DNA from: a bacterium | GTDB lineage: Bacteria; Chloroflexota; Chloroflexia; Chloroflexales; Kallotenuaceae | Assembly (NCBI GenBank): GCA_016781505.1 | Contig: JADDQF010000144.1 | Span: 26,461 to 58,807, forward strand | Length of the DNA stretch: 32,347 bases | Direction: 5' to 3' | Position numbers and translations under genes: made by a program | Notes under the pieces: generated by a model | Seen by the model: only the letters and a program-made list of their open reading frames with translations | What the model was told of the DNA's origin: nothing | Database searches by the model: none | Shown here: positions 458-32,347 of the stretch, one piece after another | Layout of the letters: the number at the start of each line of letters is the position of its first letter | How positions within the stretch are numbered: the stretch's first letter is position 1

Positions 458-463
458 ACTATA
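458..463 (-). promoter_or_regulatory. -10 box (TATAGT) of the wecG-like gene, probable leaderless promoter
   Basis: The minus strand reads TATAGT, then seven bases, then the ATG at 450. A start site 6-8 bases beyond a -10 box would fall at the start codon itself. No convincing -35 element is seen. The upstream neighbour on this strand is closed by a terminator at 487-512, so the gene needs its own promoter here. Confidence 0.5.
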
Positions 464-486: not shown

Positions 487-512
487 ACAAAACGGGTCCC
501 GCGTGGGACCCG
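487..512 (-). terminator. Rho-independent terminator after the lipoprotein gene
   Basis: A perfect 8-bp stem (493-500 with 505-512; CGGGTCCC against GGGACCCG) has a 4-base loop. On the minus strand it is followed by TTTTGTGTTT. It lies 20 bases past the stop codon of the lipoprotein gene at 532 and before the promoter of the wecG-like gene, so it separates the two transcripts. Confidence 0.85.
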
Positions 513-531
513 CTTTCAACCATGCTGCTGC

Positions 532-9164: not shown

Positions 9165-10268
9165 TCAGCTCAATTGTTCCTTGGCGCTCCAATCCCGTAG
9201 GGCGGCAAGCGCTGTGTCGTTTTGCGCAGGCGTGCCAATCGAAATGCGGACACAGTCGCGCAGGCCCGGCTTGTTGTAGTGGCGGAGCAGAATGCCCTGC
9301 TGTTCCAACGCTTGATGCAGCTCCTTGGCGCGTCCGTTCGCCACGCGCATCAGGATAAAGTTGGCCTGCGACGGGCTGGGGAGGAGGCCATCGATCCGTT
9401 GAATCTCGGCAAAAACACGTTCTCGCTCGGCCACGATCTTCCGCACCGTCCCCATCAAATACTCGGCATCTTCAAGCGAGGCGATCGCCGCAACAACCGC
9501 CGCCATGTTGATGTTGTAGGGCGGCTTAATCTTCCACAAATGCTGAATGATCGCTTCGGGAAGCAGGCCGTAGCCGATCCGCAGCCCAGCCAGCCCAGCC
9601 CACTTTGAAAACGTCCGCAGCACGACGAGGTTGGGCGCTAGGCCGACCAAATCCGCCACGCTGTGGCCGCTGAACTCGGCATACGCCTCGTCAATCACCA
9701 GGATTACGGGTAGCTGGAGTAACTGCTCGATGGCGGCTCGGGGCAACACGCTGCCGTCGGGATTATTGGGCGACGGCAGAAACACGAGCTTTGCCCTTGA
9801 TGATTCTACTGCCTCCGCCACCTGCTCAATGTCGACGCGCCAGTGCTCGTCGCGCGGTACCTGCACCACGCGGCCGCCGACAACGCCCGTATTGAAGCTA
9901 TACATGCCGAAGGTTGGCGGTGCTTCGACCACGGCGTCGCCCGGCGACAAAAACAAGCGCATCAACAGATCGATGATCTCGTCGGAGCCGTTGCCACACA
10001 AAATGCGCTCGACCGGTTGGCCGATGTACTGTGAAATTGCTTGACGTAAGGGTGTCTGGTCCGGATCAGGATAGATCGCGTAATGGGGATAGCGCACCAG
10101 CGCCGCAACTGCACGCGGGGACGGACCATACGGGTTTTCGTTGGCGTCCAGCTTGATGATCTGATCGGCGGGACGCCCGAGCCGCGCGCTCAGCGCTTCA
10201 AAGGGCACGATCGGCGTGTACGGCTCCAAGGCCGCGAGATCCGGCCGGATAAGGTTCGCGATGTCCAT
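9165..10268 (-). CDS. hisC: Histidinol-phosphate aminotransferase
   Basis: A 367-residue class I/II PLP aminotransferase. [11 protein letters not shown] (residues 40-50) and [20 protein letters not shown] (91-110) are HisC hallmarks. SPNNPDG (166-172), the PLP-contacting DEAYAEFS (193-200) and the Schiff-base Lys in [17 protein letters not shown] (Lys at 222) follow in order, and a C-terminal Arg in RISIG binds the substrate phosphate. It transfers an amino group from glutamate to imidazole acetol phosphate. It heads a minus-strand run hisC-hisN-hisB. There is no Shine-Dalgarno; a TATAAT box ends 7 bases before the ATG, so the mRNA is probably leaderless. The remaining his genes are not in the window. 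Confidence 0.96.
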
Positions 10269-10275
10269 AGGCTCG

Positions 10276-10284
10276 ATTATAGCA
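10276..10284 (-). promoter_or_regulatory. Extended -10 promoter (TGC-TATAAT) of hisC, probable leaderless start
   Basis: The minus strand reads TGCTATAAT followed by seven bases and the hisC ATG at 10268. A start site at the normal distance would coincide with the initiation codon. The -35 region has no consensus, which an extended -10 can compensate for. The string ATGCTATAATC is also found before the GT2 gene on the plus strand. Confidence 0.65.
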
Positions 10285-13720: not shown

Positions 13721-13729
13721 TGCTATAAT
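13721..13729 (+). promoter_or_regulatory. Extended -10 promoter (TGC-TATAAT) of the glycan gene block
   Basis: TGCTATAAT at 13721-13729 is followed by ten bases and the ATG at 13740. The predicted start site falls 2-4 bases before the ATG, leaving no room for a Shine-Dalgarno, and none is seen. It probably drives the GT2 gene and the tightly packed genes after it. No -35 consensus. Confidence 0.65.
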
Positions 13730-13739
13730 CCGGCGCGAT

Positions 13740-14549
13740 ATGACGATTGCACAGCCTACCGAACACAAGCGACCCTCGATCACAGCATTTTTTCCGGCCT
13801 ACAACGATGGCGGCACCATCGGCAGCCTGGTTGTGACCACGCTCCATACGCTGGCAGAGCTCACCGACGATTATGAGGTGATTGTGGTTGAAAACGGCAG
13901 CACCGACTACACCGTTGAGGTGCTGCATGATCTGGCTGCCCAGTATGATCGCCTGCGTGTGCTGACCCATCGCCACAGCCTGGGCTACGGCGGTGCGCTG
14001 CGTGTTGGCTTCGCGAGCGCCACCAAAGAGCTGGTCTTTTATACCGACGGCGATGCGCAGTACGATCCGCGCGAGCTTAAGCTGCTGGTGCCCGAGATGC
14101 GACCCGGGATCGACGTTGTCAATGGCTACAAGATCAGCCGCTCCGATCCTTTTCACCGGGTGATTATCGGGCGGTTGTACCATCATCTGGTTAAGCTGGC
14201 CTTTGGCTTCAAGCTCCGCGACGTGGATTGTGACTTTCGGCTGATGCGGCGGCACGTCTTTGACGTGATTGAGCTGGAGTCGCCGGATGGTACAATCCCG
14301 TTGGAGCTGGTTAAGAAACTGCAAGACGCCGGCTTTCGCTTTGCCGAGGTGCCTGTGCATCATTACCATCGCACCTATGGCTCTTCGCAGTTCTTTAACT
14401 TTCGTCGGCTGCGCCGCATTCCGCCACAATTGCTCAAGCTGTGGTGGAAGCTGGTGATACGGCGCGAGCATATGCCCGGTATTCGCGCCCGGCGTGCCGC
14501 GCTCGCGGCTCGTGGCGAGCTTTCAGATAGGCACGTTTCGTACTCATGA
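13740..14549 (+). CDS. Family 2 glycosyltransferase (DPM1/polyprenyl-phosphate-sugar type)
   Basis: A 269-residue GT-A fold glycosyltransferase. FFPAYNDGGTIGSLV (residues 17-31), VVENGSTDYTVEVL (49-62), LGYGGALRVGF (81-91) and VFYTDGDAQYDPREL (99-113, with the metal-binding DGD) are GT2 motifs. The subgroup resembles dolichyl/undecaprenyl-phosphate sugar synthases, but there is no C-terminal membrane helix pair, so the enzyme would be peripheral. It would transfer a sugar from a nucleotide donor, perhaps to a lipid carrier used by the GT-C-like proteins encoded downstream; donor and acceptor are unknown. It is the first gene of the glycan block; its TGA overlaps the next ATG by 4 bases. Confidence 0.92.
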   Translation: MTIAQPTEHKRPSITAFFPAYNDGGTIGSLVVTTLHTLAELTDDYEVIVVENGSTDYTVEVLHDLAAQYDRLRVLTHRHSLGYGGALRVGFASATKELVFYTDGDAQYDPRELKLLVPEMRPGIDVVNGYKISRSDPFHRVIIGRLYHHLVKLAFGFKLRDVDCDFRLMRRHVFDVIELESPDGTIPLELVKKLQDAGFRFAEVPVHHYHRTYGSSQFFNFRRLRRIPPQLLKLWWKLVIRREHMPGIRARRAALAARGELSDRHVSYS

Positions 14550-22143: not shown

Positions 22144-22235
22144 TGGCGGAGGGAGTGGGATTCGAACCCACGACGACGTTACCGCCGTACAGCATTTCCA
22201 GTGCTGCGCACTAGGCCAGGCTATGCGATCCCTCC
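22144..22235 (-). tRNA. tRNA-Ser (anticodon GGA)
   Basis: On the minus strand the acceptor arms GGAGGGA and TCCCTCC pair over 7 bp. The anticodon arm CAGCA-CTGGAAA-TGCTG has anticodon GGA, decoding UCC/UCU. A long variable arm (about 16 bases, TACGGCGGTAACGTCG) marks a class II serine tRNA, and the T-arm GTGGGTTCGAATCCCAC is canonical. The discriminator is G and CCA is encoded in the DNA (22144-22146). The gene is antisense to the glycan block and has its own promoter and terminator. tRNA genes are common integration targets, but no integrase or repeated attachment site is seen here. Confidence 0.97.
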
Positions 22236-24444: not shown

Positions 24445-24885
24445 CTACAGCGTGGCCTCGTCGTTTCGGGGAGTGAGCTGGGTTTGCACCGGGTCGATCT
24501 GCGGCTGGCAAAACCGTTCAACGATTTGCAACACTTCAACCAGCCGCACTGGCTTGTCGAGGTATCCCGCAACGCCGTCGGATTCCAGTCGGGCTTGGGC
24601 ATCGCTCGCGGCAGATAACAGGATAACCGGGATGCGGGCGAGCGTCGGGTTTTGCTGCTGTTCGGCGATGAATTGCTGTCCGTTCATGACCGGCATCATC
24701 AAATCCAGCAGAATCACCGTTGGCGTTGTATCAGTTTTCTGAAGGTATGCGAGTGCTTCGCGGCCGTTGGCGGCTCCGGCCACCAGGTACCCTTCTTCTT
24801 CGAGGAATTCGGTCAGCGCCTCGCGAATTGCAAATTCATCTTCAACGATCAAGATACTGGCTGCTTGGTCCGGCAATGATGTCAT
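24445..24885 (-). CDS. Single-domain response regulator (CheY-like receiver)
   Basis: A 146-residue protein that is only a receiver domain plus a 20-residue tail. ILIVEDEFAIREAL (residues 11-24) has the acidic metal pocket (Glu15, Asp16), VILLDLMMPVMNG (57-69) the phospho-acceptor Asp61, ILLSAAS (88-94) the switch Ser and GYLDKPVRL (107-115) the Lys111. There is no output domain, so it would act by protein contact or as a phosphate shuttle. AAAGGG lies 8 bases before the ATG. It is the last gene of the signalling block, 141 bases after the REC-PAS-kinase gene, and is probably phosphorylated by one of the kinases encoded there; that pairing is inference. Confidence 0.93.
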   Translation of the reverse strand: MTSLPDQAASILIVEDEFAIREALTEFLEEEGYLVAGAANGREALAYLQKTDTTPTVILLDLMMPVMNGQQFIAEQQQNPTLARIPVILLSAASDAQARLESDGVAGYLDKPVRLVEVLQIVERFCQPQIDPVQTQLTPRNDEATL

Positions 24886-25026
24886 GCTTGAAACCCTTTC
24901 ATGCGAACGCGTTCCCAGCGAGCGATCCTCAACCGCCGCGGCGTGGCAGCATTCAAGGATCGACGCATGCAGCTTTTGTGCCGCCTGTTGGCTCCTGGTC
25001 CGGTCGTCGTCCGAAATTTCCGCTGG

Positions 25027-26685
25027 TCACCGGATTTCCGCTTCAGCCACCGCTACGCTCCGCGGCAGAGCCACGGTAAAGGTAGAACCGTGACCTAGCT
25101 CACTGGTGACCCGGATGGTGCCGCCGAGCGCTTCCACAATCTGGCGCACGATATACAATCCAAGGCCTAGTCCACCATAATGGTTGGCAGATACCGCCCG
25201 TTCAAACCGCACAAAGATCCGTTCCAGATGCTCTGGCGCGATGCCGATACCATGGTCCTGTACCGTCAGCTCGGCCGTGGTCGCGTCGCCGTTCACCCAG
25301 ATCTCGATTGGCTTGCCGGGACCATACTTAATCGCATTTGACAGCAAGTTCGTGAACACCTGCTCCAACCGTGATCGATCCCAGTGGGCCAGGAGGGGCG
25401 CTTCAGCGCGAAGCCATACGCTGCAGCCGGCCTGCGTTATTTGTTCTTCAAATCGTGCCAACACATCCCGGACAACCTCGGTGAGATCTACTTCCTCCAG
25501 CCGAATTTCGATCCGGCCGGTGCGAATGCGGGCAACATCGAGCAGATCGTTGATCAGCCCGGCCAACCGGTCGGTTTGTTGGTCGGCCAGGTGCAGCTTC
25601 TGCAGTAAACGCTCAGGTGTAAGCTTCGCGCCGCCGTTTTTGCTGGCCGAACGCAGCAGCATTTGGAGCTGAAGCTGGAGCGCAGTCAGCGGCGTCTTTA
25701 GTTCATGCGACGCGATCGACAAAAATTCATCGCGTGCCTGGATCGCTTCCTGCGCCTCACGGTATAATCGTTCACGCTCTTCCTCGGCCCGTTTGCGTTG
25801 CGTAATATCGTTCACCGAAACAACTGCCCCCGTCACCTTGCCATCGACATGAATTGGCACGTTTGAGCAGTACACCGGAATATAGGTGCCATCCCGGTGC
25901 ACAAACAGATCTTCGTGGTTGCGCAGCGCTTCCCCCGACCGAAAGACCTCGCCAAGGGGACACTCAGCCGTCGGAAACGTTCTGCCATCCGGGTGCCGAT
26001 GATGGATATGATCGTGAAGCACTTTGCCCAGGAGCTCGGCTTGCCGCCAGCCAAACATCTGCTCAGCCGCCGGATTCATAAAGGTCGTCCGGCCTTCCGC
26101 GTCAAGCATGAACAATGCTTCCGCAGTGTTGTTGGTGATCGCTCTGTTGAGATCCAGCTGGTAGCGCAACGCCTCCTCAGCTCGACGGCGCTCGTTGATT
26201 TCGGCTCGCAGCGTGCGGTTGGCCACCGTGAGCTCGCTGGTTCGTTCACGGACCCGCAGCTCGAGCTCCTCGGCGTGCCGTTGAATCTCCTGCGTTTTGC
26301 GAAACAGATCGACAAAAACCGCGACTTTCGAGCGGAGCACTTCGGGCATGAACGGCTTGAACAGGAAGTCGACCGCGCCGACGGAGTAGCCCTTAAAGAC
26401 TCGCGCATCGCTGCGGTCGAGCGCCGTCAAAAAAATGATCGGGGTGTGCTGTGACCGCTCACGGCCGCGGATCAGCTCGGCCGTCTCAAAACCGTCCAGC
26501 CCAGGCATTTGCACGTCCAACAAGATAACGGCAAAGTCCTGTCGGAGCAGGGCTTTCAGCGCTGCCTGCCCTGAATGCGCCATGACCAGCTGATGCCCCA
26601 GGTTGCCCAGGATCGACTCCAGTGCCAGCAAATTTTCGGGCCGGTCATCGACCAGCAAGATATTTACCGCTTGTTCAAAATTCAT
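25027..26685 (-). CDS. REC-PAS-histidine kinase (hybrid, N-terminal receiver)
   Basis: A 552-residue cytoplasmic sensor kinase with no membrane segment. An N-terminal receiver (residues 6-125; Asp57 in ILLDVQMPGLDG, Lys110 in FLFKPF) leads into a coiled coil (130-175) and a PAS domain (about 178-300) containing MFGWRQAELLG and a PAC-like VNDITQRKRAEE. The HisKA domain follows with His327 in SIASHELKTPLTAL. The ATPase domain shows NLLSNAIKYG, DHGIGIAPEHL and GGLGLGLYIVRQIVEALGG. The start at 26685 is the ATG overlapping the cheB TGA (ATGA), indicating translational coupling; the longer open frame upstream lies inside cheB. Receiver-first kinases of this layout often sit next to CheB/CheR in other bacteria. 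Its receiver may be the target of the HAMP-array kinase upstream. Confidence 0.93.
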   Translation of the reverse strand: MNFEQAVNILLVDDRPENLLALESILGNLGHQLVMAHSGQAALKALLRQDFAVILLDVQMPGLDGFETAELIRGRERSQHTPIIFLTALDRSDARVFKGYSVGAVDFLFKPFMPEVLRSKVAVFVDLFRKTQEIQRHAEELELRVRERTSELTVANRTLRAEINERRRAEEALRYQLDLNRAITNNTAEALFMLDAEGRTTFMNPAAEQMFGWRQAELLGKVLHDHIHHRHPDGRTFPTAECPLGEVFRSGEALRNHEDLFVHRDGTYIPVYCSNVPIHVDGKVTGAVVSVNDITQRKRAEEERERLYREAQEAIQARDEFLSIASHELKTPLTALQLQLQMLLRSASKNGGAKLTPERLLQKLHLADQQTDRLAGLINDLLDVARIRTGRIEIRLEEVDLTEVVRDVLARFEEQITQAGCSVWLRAEAPLLAHWDRSRLEQVFTNLLSNAIKYGPGKPIEIWVNGDATTAELTVQDHGIGIAPEHLERIFVRFERAVSANHYGGLGLGLYIVRQIVEALGGTIRVTSELGHGSTFTVALPRSVAVAEAEIR

Positions 26686-27263
26686 GGTGCTACTTTCAGC
26701 TCTCCGGCTCCAAGTTGTGTCAGCAGTGTAGCGATCGCTGGTACTGGCAGAACATGGTCGGCAACGACGCTTTCCAGGGCGGCTTCCGGCATAACGCGGC
26801 ATTCGGCTGTGGCCGGATCTTGAACAACGGCTAGGCCACCGGCGGCCTTGATCGCCGCCAAGCCATCCGCGCCATCCGCGCTGGCACCAGTCAGAATGAT
26901 GCCGATCACCTGCGGGCCATACGCATCCGCGGCCGACTCAAACAACACATTGATCGATGGCCGTGAGTACAAAACCGGTGCTTCGGTCGAGAGTGCAAAG
27001 ACGTCCCGTTCCACCAGCAGATGATAGTCTGCTGGCGCCAGACAAACAATGCCAGAACGAATCGCTTGTTTGTCTTCCACATCACACACGGGTAGTTTGC
27101 TGGCGCGTTGGAGCACTGTTGCGAGTGCACCCTCCGACTCGCGGTGCCGATGTTGCACAATCGCCACCGGCAGCCCAAAGTTACCCGGCAGCCCGCCTAG
27201 CAACGTTGCAACAGCGTGCAAGCCGCCTAATGATGCCCCGATCACTACGAGTTCAAATGTCAC
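26682..27263 (-). CDS. cheB: Stand-alone CheB-type methylesterase domain (no receiver)
   Basis: A 193-residue protein that covers only the catalytic domain of CheB. The triad is visible as Ser11 in VVIGASLGGLHA, His38 in AIVQHRHRES and Asp130 in ILTGASADGADGL. Classical CheB (about 350 residues) has an N-terminal receiver that controls it; that is absent here, so regulation must come from another protein, plausibly the receiver at the start of the next gene, which is translationally coupled. It would hydrolyse glutamyl methyl esters or deamidate glutamine in a receptor, but no chemoreceptor is encoded in this window. The start is a GTG at 27263 with AGAGG 6 bases upstream. Confidence 0.92.
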   Translation of the reverse strand: MTFELVVIGASLGGLHAVATLLGGLPGNFGLPVAIVQHRHRESEGALATVLQRASKLPVCDVEDKQAIRSGIVCLAPADYHLLVERDVFALSTEAPVLYSRPSINVLFESAADAYGPQVIGIILTGASADGADGLAAIKAAGGLAVVQDPATAECRVMPEAALESVVADHVLPVPAIATLLTQLGAGELKVAP

Positions 27264-27343
27264 AGCGCCTCTTCGCTTGCTGTTAAGCTCACATCGGAAA
27301 CGGTAATTGCGGCATGATCGATCCTCAGTGCGCTTCGTCCAGC

Positions 27344-28162
27344 TTAGCTTATTCTGCGGTACAACCGCTCACCGCTGACGATCTCGGCATACTGATGCTC
27401 GTGCGGGGTAAATTTGAGCGACTCAGCCTGCCCGACGCCCAAAACCCCGAACAGGGAAAGGCTTTCGTACAAAAGATGATGAACGCGCGCTTGCAAGTCC
27501 TTGTTGAAATAGATCATGACGTTGCGGCACAATATTACATTAAACTCATTAAACGAACCGTCCGTCGCTAAGTTATGCTGGGAAAACGTAATATGTTCCT
27601 TCAGCCACGGCCGAAAAATGGCGCGCTCATAGGCGGCCGTGTAGTATTGCGAGAACGATTGGCTGCCGCCGGCCTTGAGGTAATTGTTCGTGTACTCCTG
27701 CATTTTGTTGAGGGCAAAAATGCCCGCTTTAGCCTGTGCCAAAACCGCTGCATTCATGTCGGTCGCGTAGATGCGACAGCGGTCGTACAAGCCGGCTTCA
27801 TGCAGCAGGATCGCCATCGAGTACACTTCTTCACCGCTCGAACAGCCGGCGTGCCAGATGCGAATAAACGGGTAGGTGCGCAGCAGCGGTACGACTTTGG
27901 TCATAAACGTAAGATAAAAATGCGGGTCGCGAAACATGGCCGTGACGTTCACGGTCATCGCCAGCAGGAAGCGTTCAAGACAGGCTGCGTCGTGCAGAAC
28001 ACGCTCTTGCAGTGCTGACACCGTTTTAACGCCTTCCGCCCGCAGCACATTCGCGATCCGCCGCTTCAACGACGCAAGCGCATAGTTGCGAAAGTCGTAT
28101 CCGTAGAAGCGCGCCACTCCCTCCAATAATAATTGAATCTCGATGTCTTCTAGCTCATTCAT
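27344..28162 (-). CDS. cheR: CheR-type glutamate methyltransferase
   Basis: A 272-residue SAM-dependent methyltransferase of the CheR family. The N-terminal helical CheR_N region includes FYGYDFRNYALASLKRRIAN (residues 19-38) and the T-x-FRD motif VNVTAMFRDPHFY (71-83). The SAM motif IRIWHAGCSSGEEVYSMAI (100-118) and FNVILCRNVMIYFN (near residue 205) follow. It transfers methyl groups to glutamates of a receptor or, in HAMP-kinase systems, possibly of the kinase. The ATG at 28162 is used because the preceding in-frame 22 residues are not conserved in type and cover structured intercistronic RNA. No Shine-Dalgarno is seen. It lies between the HAMP-array kinase and cheB, 80 bases from the latter. 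Confidence 0.93.
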   Translation of the reverse strand: MNELEDIEIQLLLEGVARFYGYDFRNYALASLKRRIANVLRAEGVKTVSALQERVLHDAACLERFLLAMTVNVTAMFRDPHFYLTFMTKVVPLLRTYPFIRIWHAGCSSGEEVYSMAILLHEAGLYDRCRIYATDMNAAVLAQAKAGIFALNKMQEYTNNYLKAGGSQSFSQYYTAAYERAIFRPWLKEHITFSQHNLATDGSFNEFNVILCRNVMIYFNKDLQARVHHLLYESLSLFGVLGVGQAESLKFTPHEHQYAEIVSGERLYRRIS

Positions 28163-28204
28163 GCTATACGCATATGTACGCCCACTCACACGCGGCTGTG
28201 CTTG

Positions 28205-28220
28205 CCATGGCGAACCATGG
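28205..28220 (-). other. Hairpin with a UUCG tetraloop upstream of cheR
   Basis: CCATGG-CGAA-CCATGG forms a 6-bp stem. On the transcribed minus strand the loop is TTCG, one of the most stable RNA tetraloops. It lies about 42 bases upstream of the cheR start, so it belongs to the intercistronic or 5' leader RNA. It may affect translation or mRNA stability. Confidence 0.5.
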
Positions 28221-28249
28221 ATGCACACAAACGATTGTCTGCGGATACG

Positions 28250-28302
28250 TTGGGAATGCAGTTAACAGCGCCACGCTGCGTGGTAGCAAGCTGCATTCCC
28301 AA
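28250..28302 (-). repeat. 12-bp perfect inverted repeat after the HAMP-array kinase stop
   Basis: TTGGGAATGCAG at 28250-28261 is exactly complementary to CTGCATTCCCAA at 28291-28302. An inner stem CCACG-CTG-CGTGG (28271-28283) sits in the 29-base loop. On the minus strand it begins 6 bases after the kinase stop. There is no T-run, so it could be a 3'-end stabiliser, an attenuator or a processing site rather than a classical terminator. Confidence 0.7.
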
Positions 28303-28308
28303 GCTCCA

Positions 28309-32347
<4,039 letters not shown>

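Follow-up and report, generated by a model that had tools for sequence, protein, structure and literature searches.

One may ask how expression of a gene begins when its −10 box lies only 7 to 10 nt before the start codon, and by which route such an arrangement comes about. The question is raised by three genes of the window, i.e., the whole stretch of 32,347 nt that was analysed here, which is part of an assembly of 4.18 Mb in 159 contigs. The source genome belongs to the Chloroflexota, to the order that contains Herpetosiphon, Roseiflexus and Chloroflexus, and the closest named relatives of its hisC come from Herpetosiphon and other Chloroflexota. The answer proposed here, which we regard as very probable, is that promoters abutting the coding sequence give leaderless mRNAs of hisC and of a wecG-like gene and a near-leaderless mRNA of a family 2 glycosyltransferase (GT2) gene, and that the leaders of hisC and GT2 were lost in the ancestor of the family. 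Start sites and the mode of translation are predicted here from sequence, and the direction of change by parsimony.

The first-pass annotation of the window had placed a −10 box 7, 7 and 10 nt before the ATG of the three genes, and all three positions were confirmed. On the minus strand, TATAGT (458–463) ends 7 nt before the ATG (448–450) of a wecG/tagA-like glycosyltransferase gene, of which the 5′ 150 codons are present (1–450; Pfam PF03808, E 1.3e-18) and which continues past the window edge. Also on the minus strand, TATAAT (10276–10281) ends 7 nt before the ATG (10266–10268) of hisC, encoding histidinol-phosphate aminotransferase (9165–10268; TIGR01141, 341 bits, above the cut-off). On the plus strand, TATAAT (13724–13729) stands 10 nt before the ATG at 13740 of the GT2 gene (13740–14549; Pfam PF00535, E 2.6e-24). 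None of the three start codons is preceded by a Shine-Dalgarno (SD)-like motif, as had been claimed. It had also been stated that other genes of the window carry a strong SD, which holds for the aldo/keto reductase gene (12514), the winged-helix gene (1545) and the GTG start (1104) of the lipoprotein gene, not for the alternative ATG of the latter (1164). The motif was defined as complementary to the CCTCC of the 16S rRNA tail, which in G005, a genome of the same family, ends GGATCACCTCCTTT; no 16S gene was found in the source genome by a search that also missed it in 5 of 14 control genomes. Of the 416 ATG genes sampled from the source genome, 119 have a strict SD motif, therefore the absence of SD alone adds little.

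What kind of promoter might these boxes belong to? Directly before the boxes of both hisC and GT2 there is TGC, so that both are extended −10 elements (TGN), TGCTATAAT, located at 10276–10284 (−) and 13721–13729 (+), respectively. The wecG box is preceded by CGG and is thus not of the extended type. No shared −35 element was seen by eye upstream of the hisC and GT2 boxes, where the letters differ among relatives. A sigma-70 scan with a two-hexamer model did not list a promoter for any of the three genes; it missed them because it demands a −35 hexamer and extended −10 promoters are outside its model.

The strongest evidence comes from following the same genes through related genomes. Whole-genome kinship defines the family as six genomes including the source genome; the Herpetosiphon family belongs to the same order. 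Among the comparison genomes G010 is one which we take to be Roseiflexus, and G026 is presumably Chloroflexus aurantiacus J-10-fl. In all six family genomes an extended −10 lies before the hisC ATG, at 7, 6, 7, 7, 7 and 6 nt; it reads TGCTATAAT in five of them (6–7 nt) and TGGTATCAT in the sixth (6 nt), and SD is absent from all six orthologs. For the comparison outside the family, 37 of 41 genomes held a near full-length match with at least 47% identity, and 30 loci were read in all, 7 being left unread. In 19 of the 24 loci read outside the family an extended −10, mostly TGGTATCAT or TGGTACGAT, lies 31–53 nt before the start, and in the other 5 the box was not seen; a loose pattern that allows GAAG finds an SD-like motif in 19 of the 24 loci, a tighter one in 15. 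The distance from the box to a conserved coding motif is 27–30 nt in the family vs. 52–74 nt outside, while the start lies 7–8 codons before this motif in the family and the SD-led starts of other families lie 7–9 codons before it, with one at 11. By alignment across families, the hisC start codon adjoining the box is thus the true start as far as sequence criteria go. Since the box-to-motif distance shrinks and the start stays about 7–9 codons before the motif, the hisC leader was probably lost by shortening; about 22–47 nt between the box and the coding sequence would have disappeared. In the hisC tree (42 rows, midpoint root, outgroups apart on the far side) the family groups with the Herpetosiphon family, followed by a third and then a fourth family, with support of 94/85 for the family and 99/92 for its union with the Herpetosiphon family. 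Leadered states surround the leaderless one in this tree, and loss of the leader on the stem of the family is therefore the simplest history.

The GT2 gene points to the same outcome by a different route. In the family the box TGnTATAAT precedes the ATG by 10 nt in five of six genomes and by 8 nt in the sixth, and none of the six orthologs has SD. The ATG is the first start codon after the preceding stop and no further start codon lies ahead of the catalytic domain, so that by sequence criteria the start codon adjoining the box is the true one. Ten genomes outside the family were searched, nine of them yielded a match of 1e-40 or better, and the best locus of each was read; in all nine a box lies 44–64 nt before a conserved R-P-S-I motif and an SD-like motif precedes the start nearest to it (the box of G036 being preceded by GGG instead of TGN). 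From box to motif the distance is 35–40 nt in the family vs. the 44–64 nt outside, and from start to motif it is 9–10 codons vs. 3–6, one outside row having a further ATG at 8. The family start is thus 3–7 codons farther upstream of R-P-S-I than the SD-led starts in the other families of the order. Use of a start codon closer to the promoter has probably turned the former leader into an N-terminal extension, a direction of change that is read from the nine outside loci without a GT2 tree. It had been proposed that transcription of all three genes starts at or next to the ATG; for GT2 this needs correction, as a spacing of 10 nt predicts a leader of about 2–3 nt, and the GT2 mRNA would be nearly, not strictly, leaderless.

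The wecG-like gene is the weakest of the three cases. TATAGT occurs at 7, 7, 7 and 6 nt before the ATG in four of the six family genomes; G002 has a degenerate box, TATAGG, and in G004 no box was recognisable, its match being only 46% identical and possibly not an ortholog. G005 also has AGGAGG, though just 1 nt separates it from the ATG. Outside the family, where the best locus of each of 10 genomes was read, four have a box of TATAAT, TATGAT or TACAAT type 34–50 nt before a listed start, three have weaker box matches only and three none; no listed start at these loci has a box at 6–10 nt. Upstream of the box a hairpin followed by a T-rich stretch (489–516, minus strand; fold z −3.7 for 475–531) is the probable terminator of the upstream lipoprotein gene. 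A terminator scan did not list this hairpin, which was seen by folding, and hairpins with changed letters are present by eye at the corresponding place in relatives. Because the hairpin with its T-rich tail ends 25 nt before the box, the lipoprotein gene's terminator is probably followed immediately by the wecG promoter. By eye, a TTAAG-like string was also noticed about 16 nt upstream of this box, and it recurs in several relatives.

These observations support the leaderless reading of the first-pass annotation, which is the best-supported reading of hisC and GT2 and a likely one of wecG: the spacing in relatives is near-fixed, SD is lacking, the boxes of hisC and GT2 follow TGC, and GT2 has no alternative start before the catalytic domain. 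In the mechanism that we propose, the three boxes would be the sigma-70-type −10 elements of promoters that abut the coding sequence, those of hisC and GT2 being extended −10 promoters with no evident −35 element. RNA polymerase would start at the ATG or within about 3 nt of it, yielding mRNAs that are leaderless for hisC and wecG and nearly leaderless for GT2, and the AUG would be read directly by the ribosome without SD. In the ancestor of the family, hisC and GT2 would have passed from the SD-led to the leaderless state with the promoter kept, hisC by loss of sequence between box and gene and GT2 by adoption of a closer start codon.

The alternative that survives best, though we consider it improbable, accepts the promoters as real and holds that the ATG adjoining the box is not the start, translation beginning at a downstream in-frame codon behind a very short SD leader. 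Orthologs point this way for another gene of the same genome and permit it for a second. Three of the 22 exact-TATAAT gene starts lying outside the window were checked by their orthologs, namely rlmN, ruvB and gatB. For rlmN five of the six family genomes have a box 8–9 nt before the ATG, and it holds as an independent case. For ruvB (L231:1079), with TATAAT 7 nt before an ATG, the leaderless reading was rejected, since the box-adjoining ATG occurs in one of six genomes, the source genome only, and the start common to all six is found 18 nt farther downstream, preceded by GGAG, GAGGAG or a like motif. In gatB (L190:1503) five of the six family genomes retain the box-adjoining ATG, which the TATAAT box precedes by 10 nt; all six have a further ATG 12 nt downstream, and in those five it follows GGAGG. 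The gene is ambiguous between a leaderless and an SD-led start. Very short SD leaders can therefore mimic leaderless genes, clearly in ruvB and ambiguously in gatB, and the box-before-ATG pattern alone overcalls. The first 20 codons of wecG also hold TTG, GTG and ATG codons, which leaves room for a downstream start; the box-adjoining ATG is kept in four of six genomes. Neither hisC nor GT2 has an SD-led start within its first 20 codons; hisC escapes the overcalling because its start aligns across families, at the same distance from the conserved motif as SD-led starts elsewhere, and GT2 because its domain has no other start codon ahead of it. One further independent candidate was noted beside these, a nucleotidyltransferase gene: in each of the two family genomes sampled, a box stands 6 nt before it, the homologous proteins being 58% identical.

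Somewhat less probable still is that the three mRNAs have leaders that lack SD, being made from an upstream promoter or by read-through, with the ribosome bound through S1 or an unstructured leader. In its favour, genes with no SD are common in this genome, as the 119 of 416 with a strict motif imply, and the terminator scan found none between larB and hisC. Against this stand the position of the consensus extended −10, conserved while its flanks differ, the hairpin with T-rich tail just upstream of the wecG promoter, and the presence of a similar box before the leadered hisC and GT2 of other families.

How common are such genes in the source genome and beyond? A genome-wide scan for boxes close to ATG, which the first-pass annotation had suggested, was run as TATAATN{6,10}ATG and gave 62 occurrences vs. 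27 for the reversed control. The 63 exact-TATAAT rows examined (one box has two ATGs) comprised 24 gene starts by the gene caller and 39 that were not. Gene-level counts were made with a simple codon-usage caller, not an established gene finder, and on non-random stretches, the contigs of the source genome being mostly drawn from the list of TATAAT-ATG sites and the window included; on this approximate basis a strict box at 6–10 nt precedes 11 of 416 source-genome genes, 8 of them clean, i.e., with no nearby SD-led start. The controls gave 2 of 416 (0 clean) for the strict box at 12–16 nt and 3 of 416 (1 clean) for the reversed box at 6–10 nt. With the controls listed likewise, the second family genome had 9 of 275 (8 clean) vs. 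2 (1 clean) and 0, the Herpetosiphon sample 2 of 256 (both clean) vs. 4 (2 clean) and 1 (1 clean), and the C. aurantiacus sample 4 of 249 (all clean) vs. 3 (2 clean) and 1 (1 clean). The excess of the family over its own control is 16 vs. 1 of 691 clean genes (p 0.0003); two of the G005 stretches had been picked for holding hisC and GT2, and with these two genes left out (2 of the 8 clean ones per genome) it is 12 of 687 vs. 1 of 691 (p 0.0017). A raw count of the boxes ahead of each ATG that opens at least 150 codons was dropped, since internal ATGs and codon phase dominated it. Leaderless-type genes are thus a small minority in the source genome, beside SD-led ones.

Within the sample of the source genome, boxes number 2.2 per position at 6–10 nt, 0.7 at 11–20 nt and 1.5 at 21–45 nt before the start, an uneven distribution that fits, as expected, a leader that is either absent or long enough for SD. 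TGN precedes the box at 13 of the 24 exact-TATAAT gene starts (binomial p 1.7e-10 vs. 6%) and also at 11 of the 39 TATAAT boxes outside gene starts, therefore it marks promoters generally, not leaderless ones. The chance of at least three such genes among 26 of the window (25 called plus wecG), at 3/416 per gene, is 0.0009, a value that is indicative only, since the three genes were picked after looking, and conservation in relatives is the stronger argument. That the boxes are mere chance AT-rich hexamers near start codons, as the 27 reversed hits and the 39 of 63 rows that are not gene starts might suggest, is hardly credible given their conservation across genera, the TGN enrichment and the low control rates.

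With the promoter-abutting reading retained for the three genes, a wider version of it may be considered, namely a lineage-wide drift to leaderless initiation on the stem of the family, which would have affected several genes by two routes with the extended −10 kept, while the sister family kept its SD leaders. We hold this wider version only tentatively. A related proposal, that leaderless genes are more frequent throughout the family than in neighbouring ones, was considered and not supported, its clean genes numbering 16 of 691 vs. 6 of 505 in the Herpetosiphon and Chloroflexus samples (Fisher p 0.19), or 12 of 687 vs. 6 of 505 without hisC and GT2 (p 0.48).

The leaderless gene with a TA box is an established kind, to which the present genes add a clean comparative case of probable leader loss. 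In the sections of their report drawn on here, Zheng et al. predicted leaderless TA-led genes at 4.0–5.7% in 4 of 12 Chloroflexi genomes, the first T of TANNNT lying about 12 nt ahead of the start codon; for Chloroflexi they name a TATAAT-like form (Zheng et al., 2011; PMC3160421). The genes described here resemble these in having a TATAAT-like box at a comparable distance before the start. In the same sections the change from SD to TA between orthologs was measured statistically, in Actinobacteria and Streptococcaceae (PMC3160421), whereas here single orthologs were followed in one Chloroflexota family, with promoter, leader and start visible and the direction taken from a tree. A parallel with actinobacteria and Deinococcus had been drawn in the first-pass annotation; the host, as a member of the Chloroflexota, in which leaderless genes form a minority next to SD-led ones, is neither, and the parallel is by analogy only. 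In Deinococcus-Thermus, as described in part of one report, a −10 motif lies about 6–7 nt before the ORF, the promoter abuts the start codon and no 5′ UTR is assumed; in D. radiodurans this concerns nearly one third of genes, mostly with TACACT, whereas here it concerns about 2–3% of sampled genes, with a TATAAT-like box that often has TGN (PMC12340547). For Mycobacterium tuberculosis, the passages used of another study define leaderless transcripts by a transcription start within 5 bp of the start codon, find TANNNT without a conserved −35 and count 26% of genes with a primary start site as leaderless, unlike the small minority predicted here from sequence; TGN precedes 7% of the TANNNT motifs there vs. 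the 13 of 24 exact-TATAAT gene starts here (PMC3898074). Genes without SD have been treated generally, as far as the part of the source used here goes (PMC5397173). Among the open-access papers that keyword searches brought up, none announced in its title or displayed abstract a start-site map for the order that contains Herpetosiphon, Roseiflexus and Chloroflexus.

Surveys of leaderless genes usually give one count per genome; here the same gene and its promoter can be traced between sister families, from an SD leader to none. The hisC and GT2 genes thereby offer matched natural pairs for the role of the leader in expression and for the route of its loss. With one of the three further candidates failing and one ambiguous, the box-before-ATG pattern needs ortholog checks wherever it is used.

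Some other features of the window were noted in passing. Immediately upstream of the ATG of the gene that starts at 1712 (+) stands TTGACATATTTTT, which resembles a −35 element and is too close to the ATG for a −10 at the normal spacing; the gene has no SD. A tRNA-Ser (gga) lies at 22144–22235 (−), where two overlapping ORFs of the opposite strand are probably spurious. At 24445–32322 (−) there is a run of ORFs resembling signalling proteins, and the ORF at 28309–32322 (−) contains tandem repeats that by eye resemble a HAMP array.
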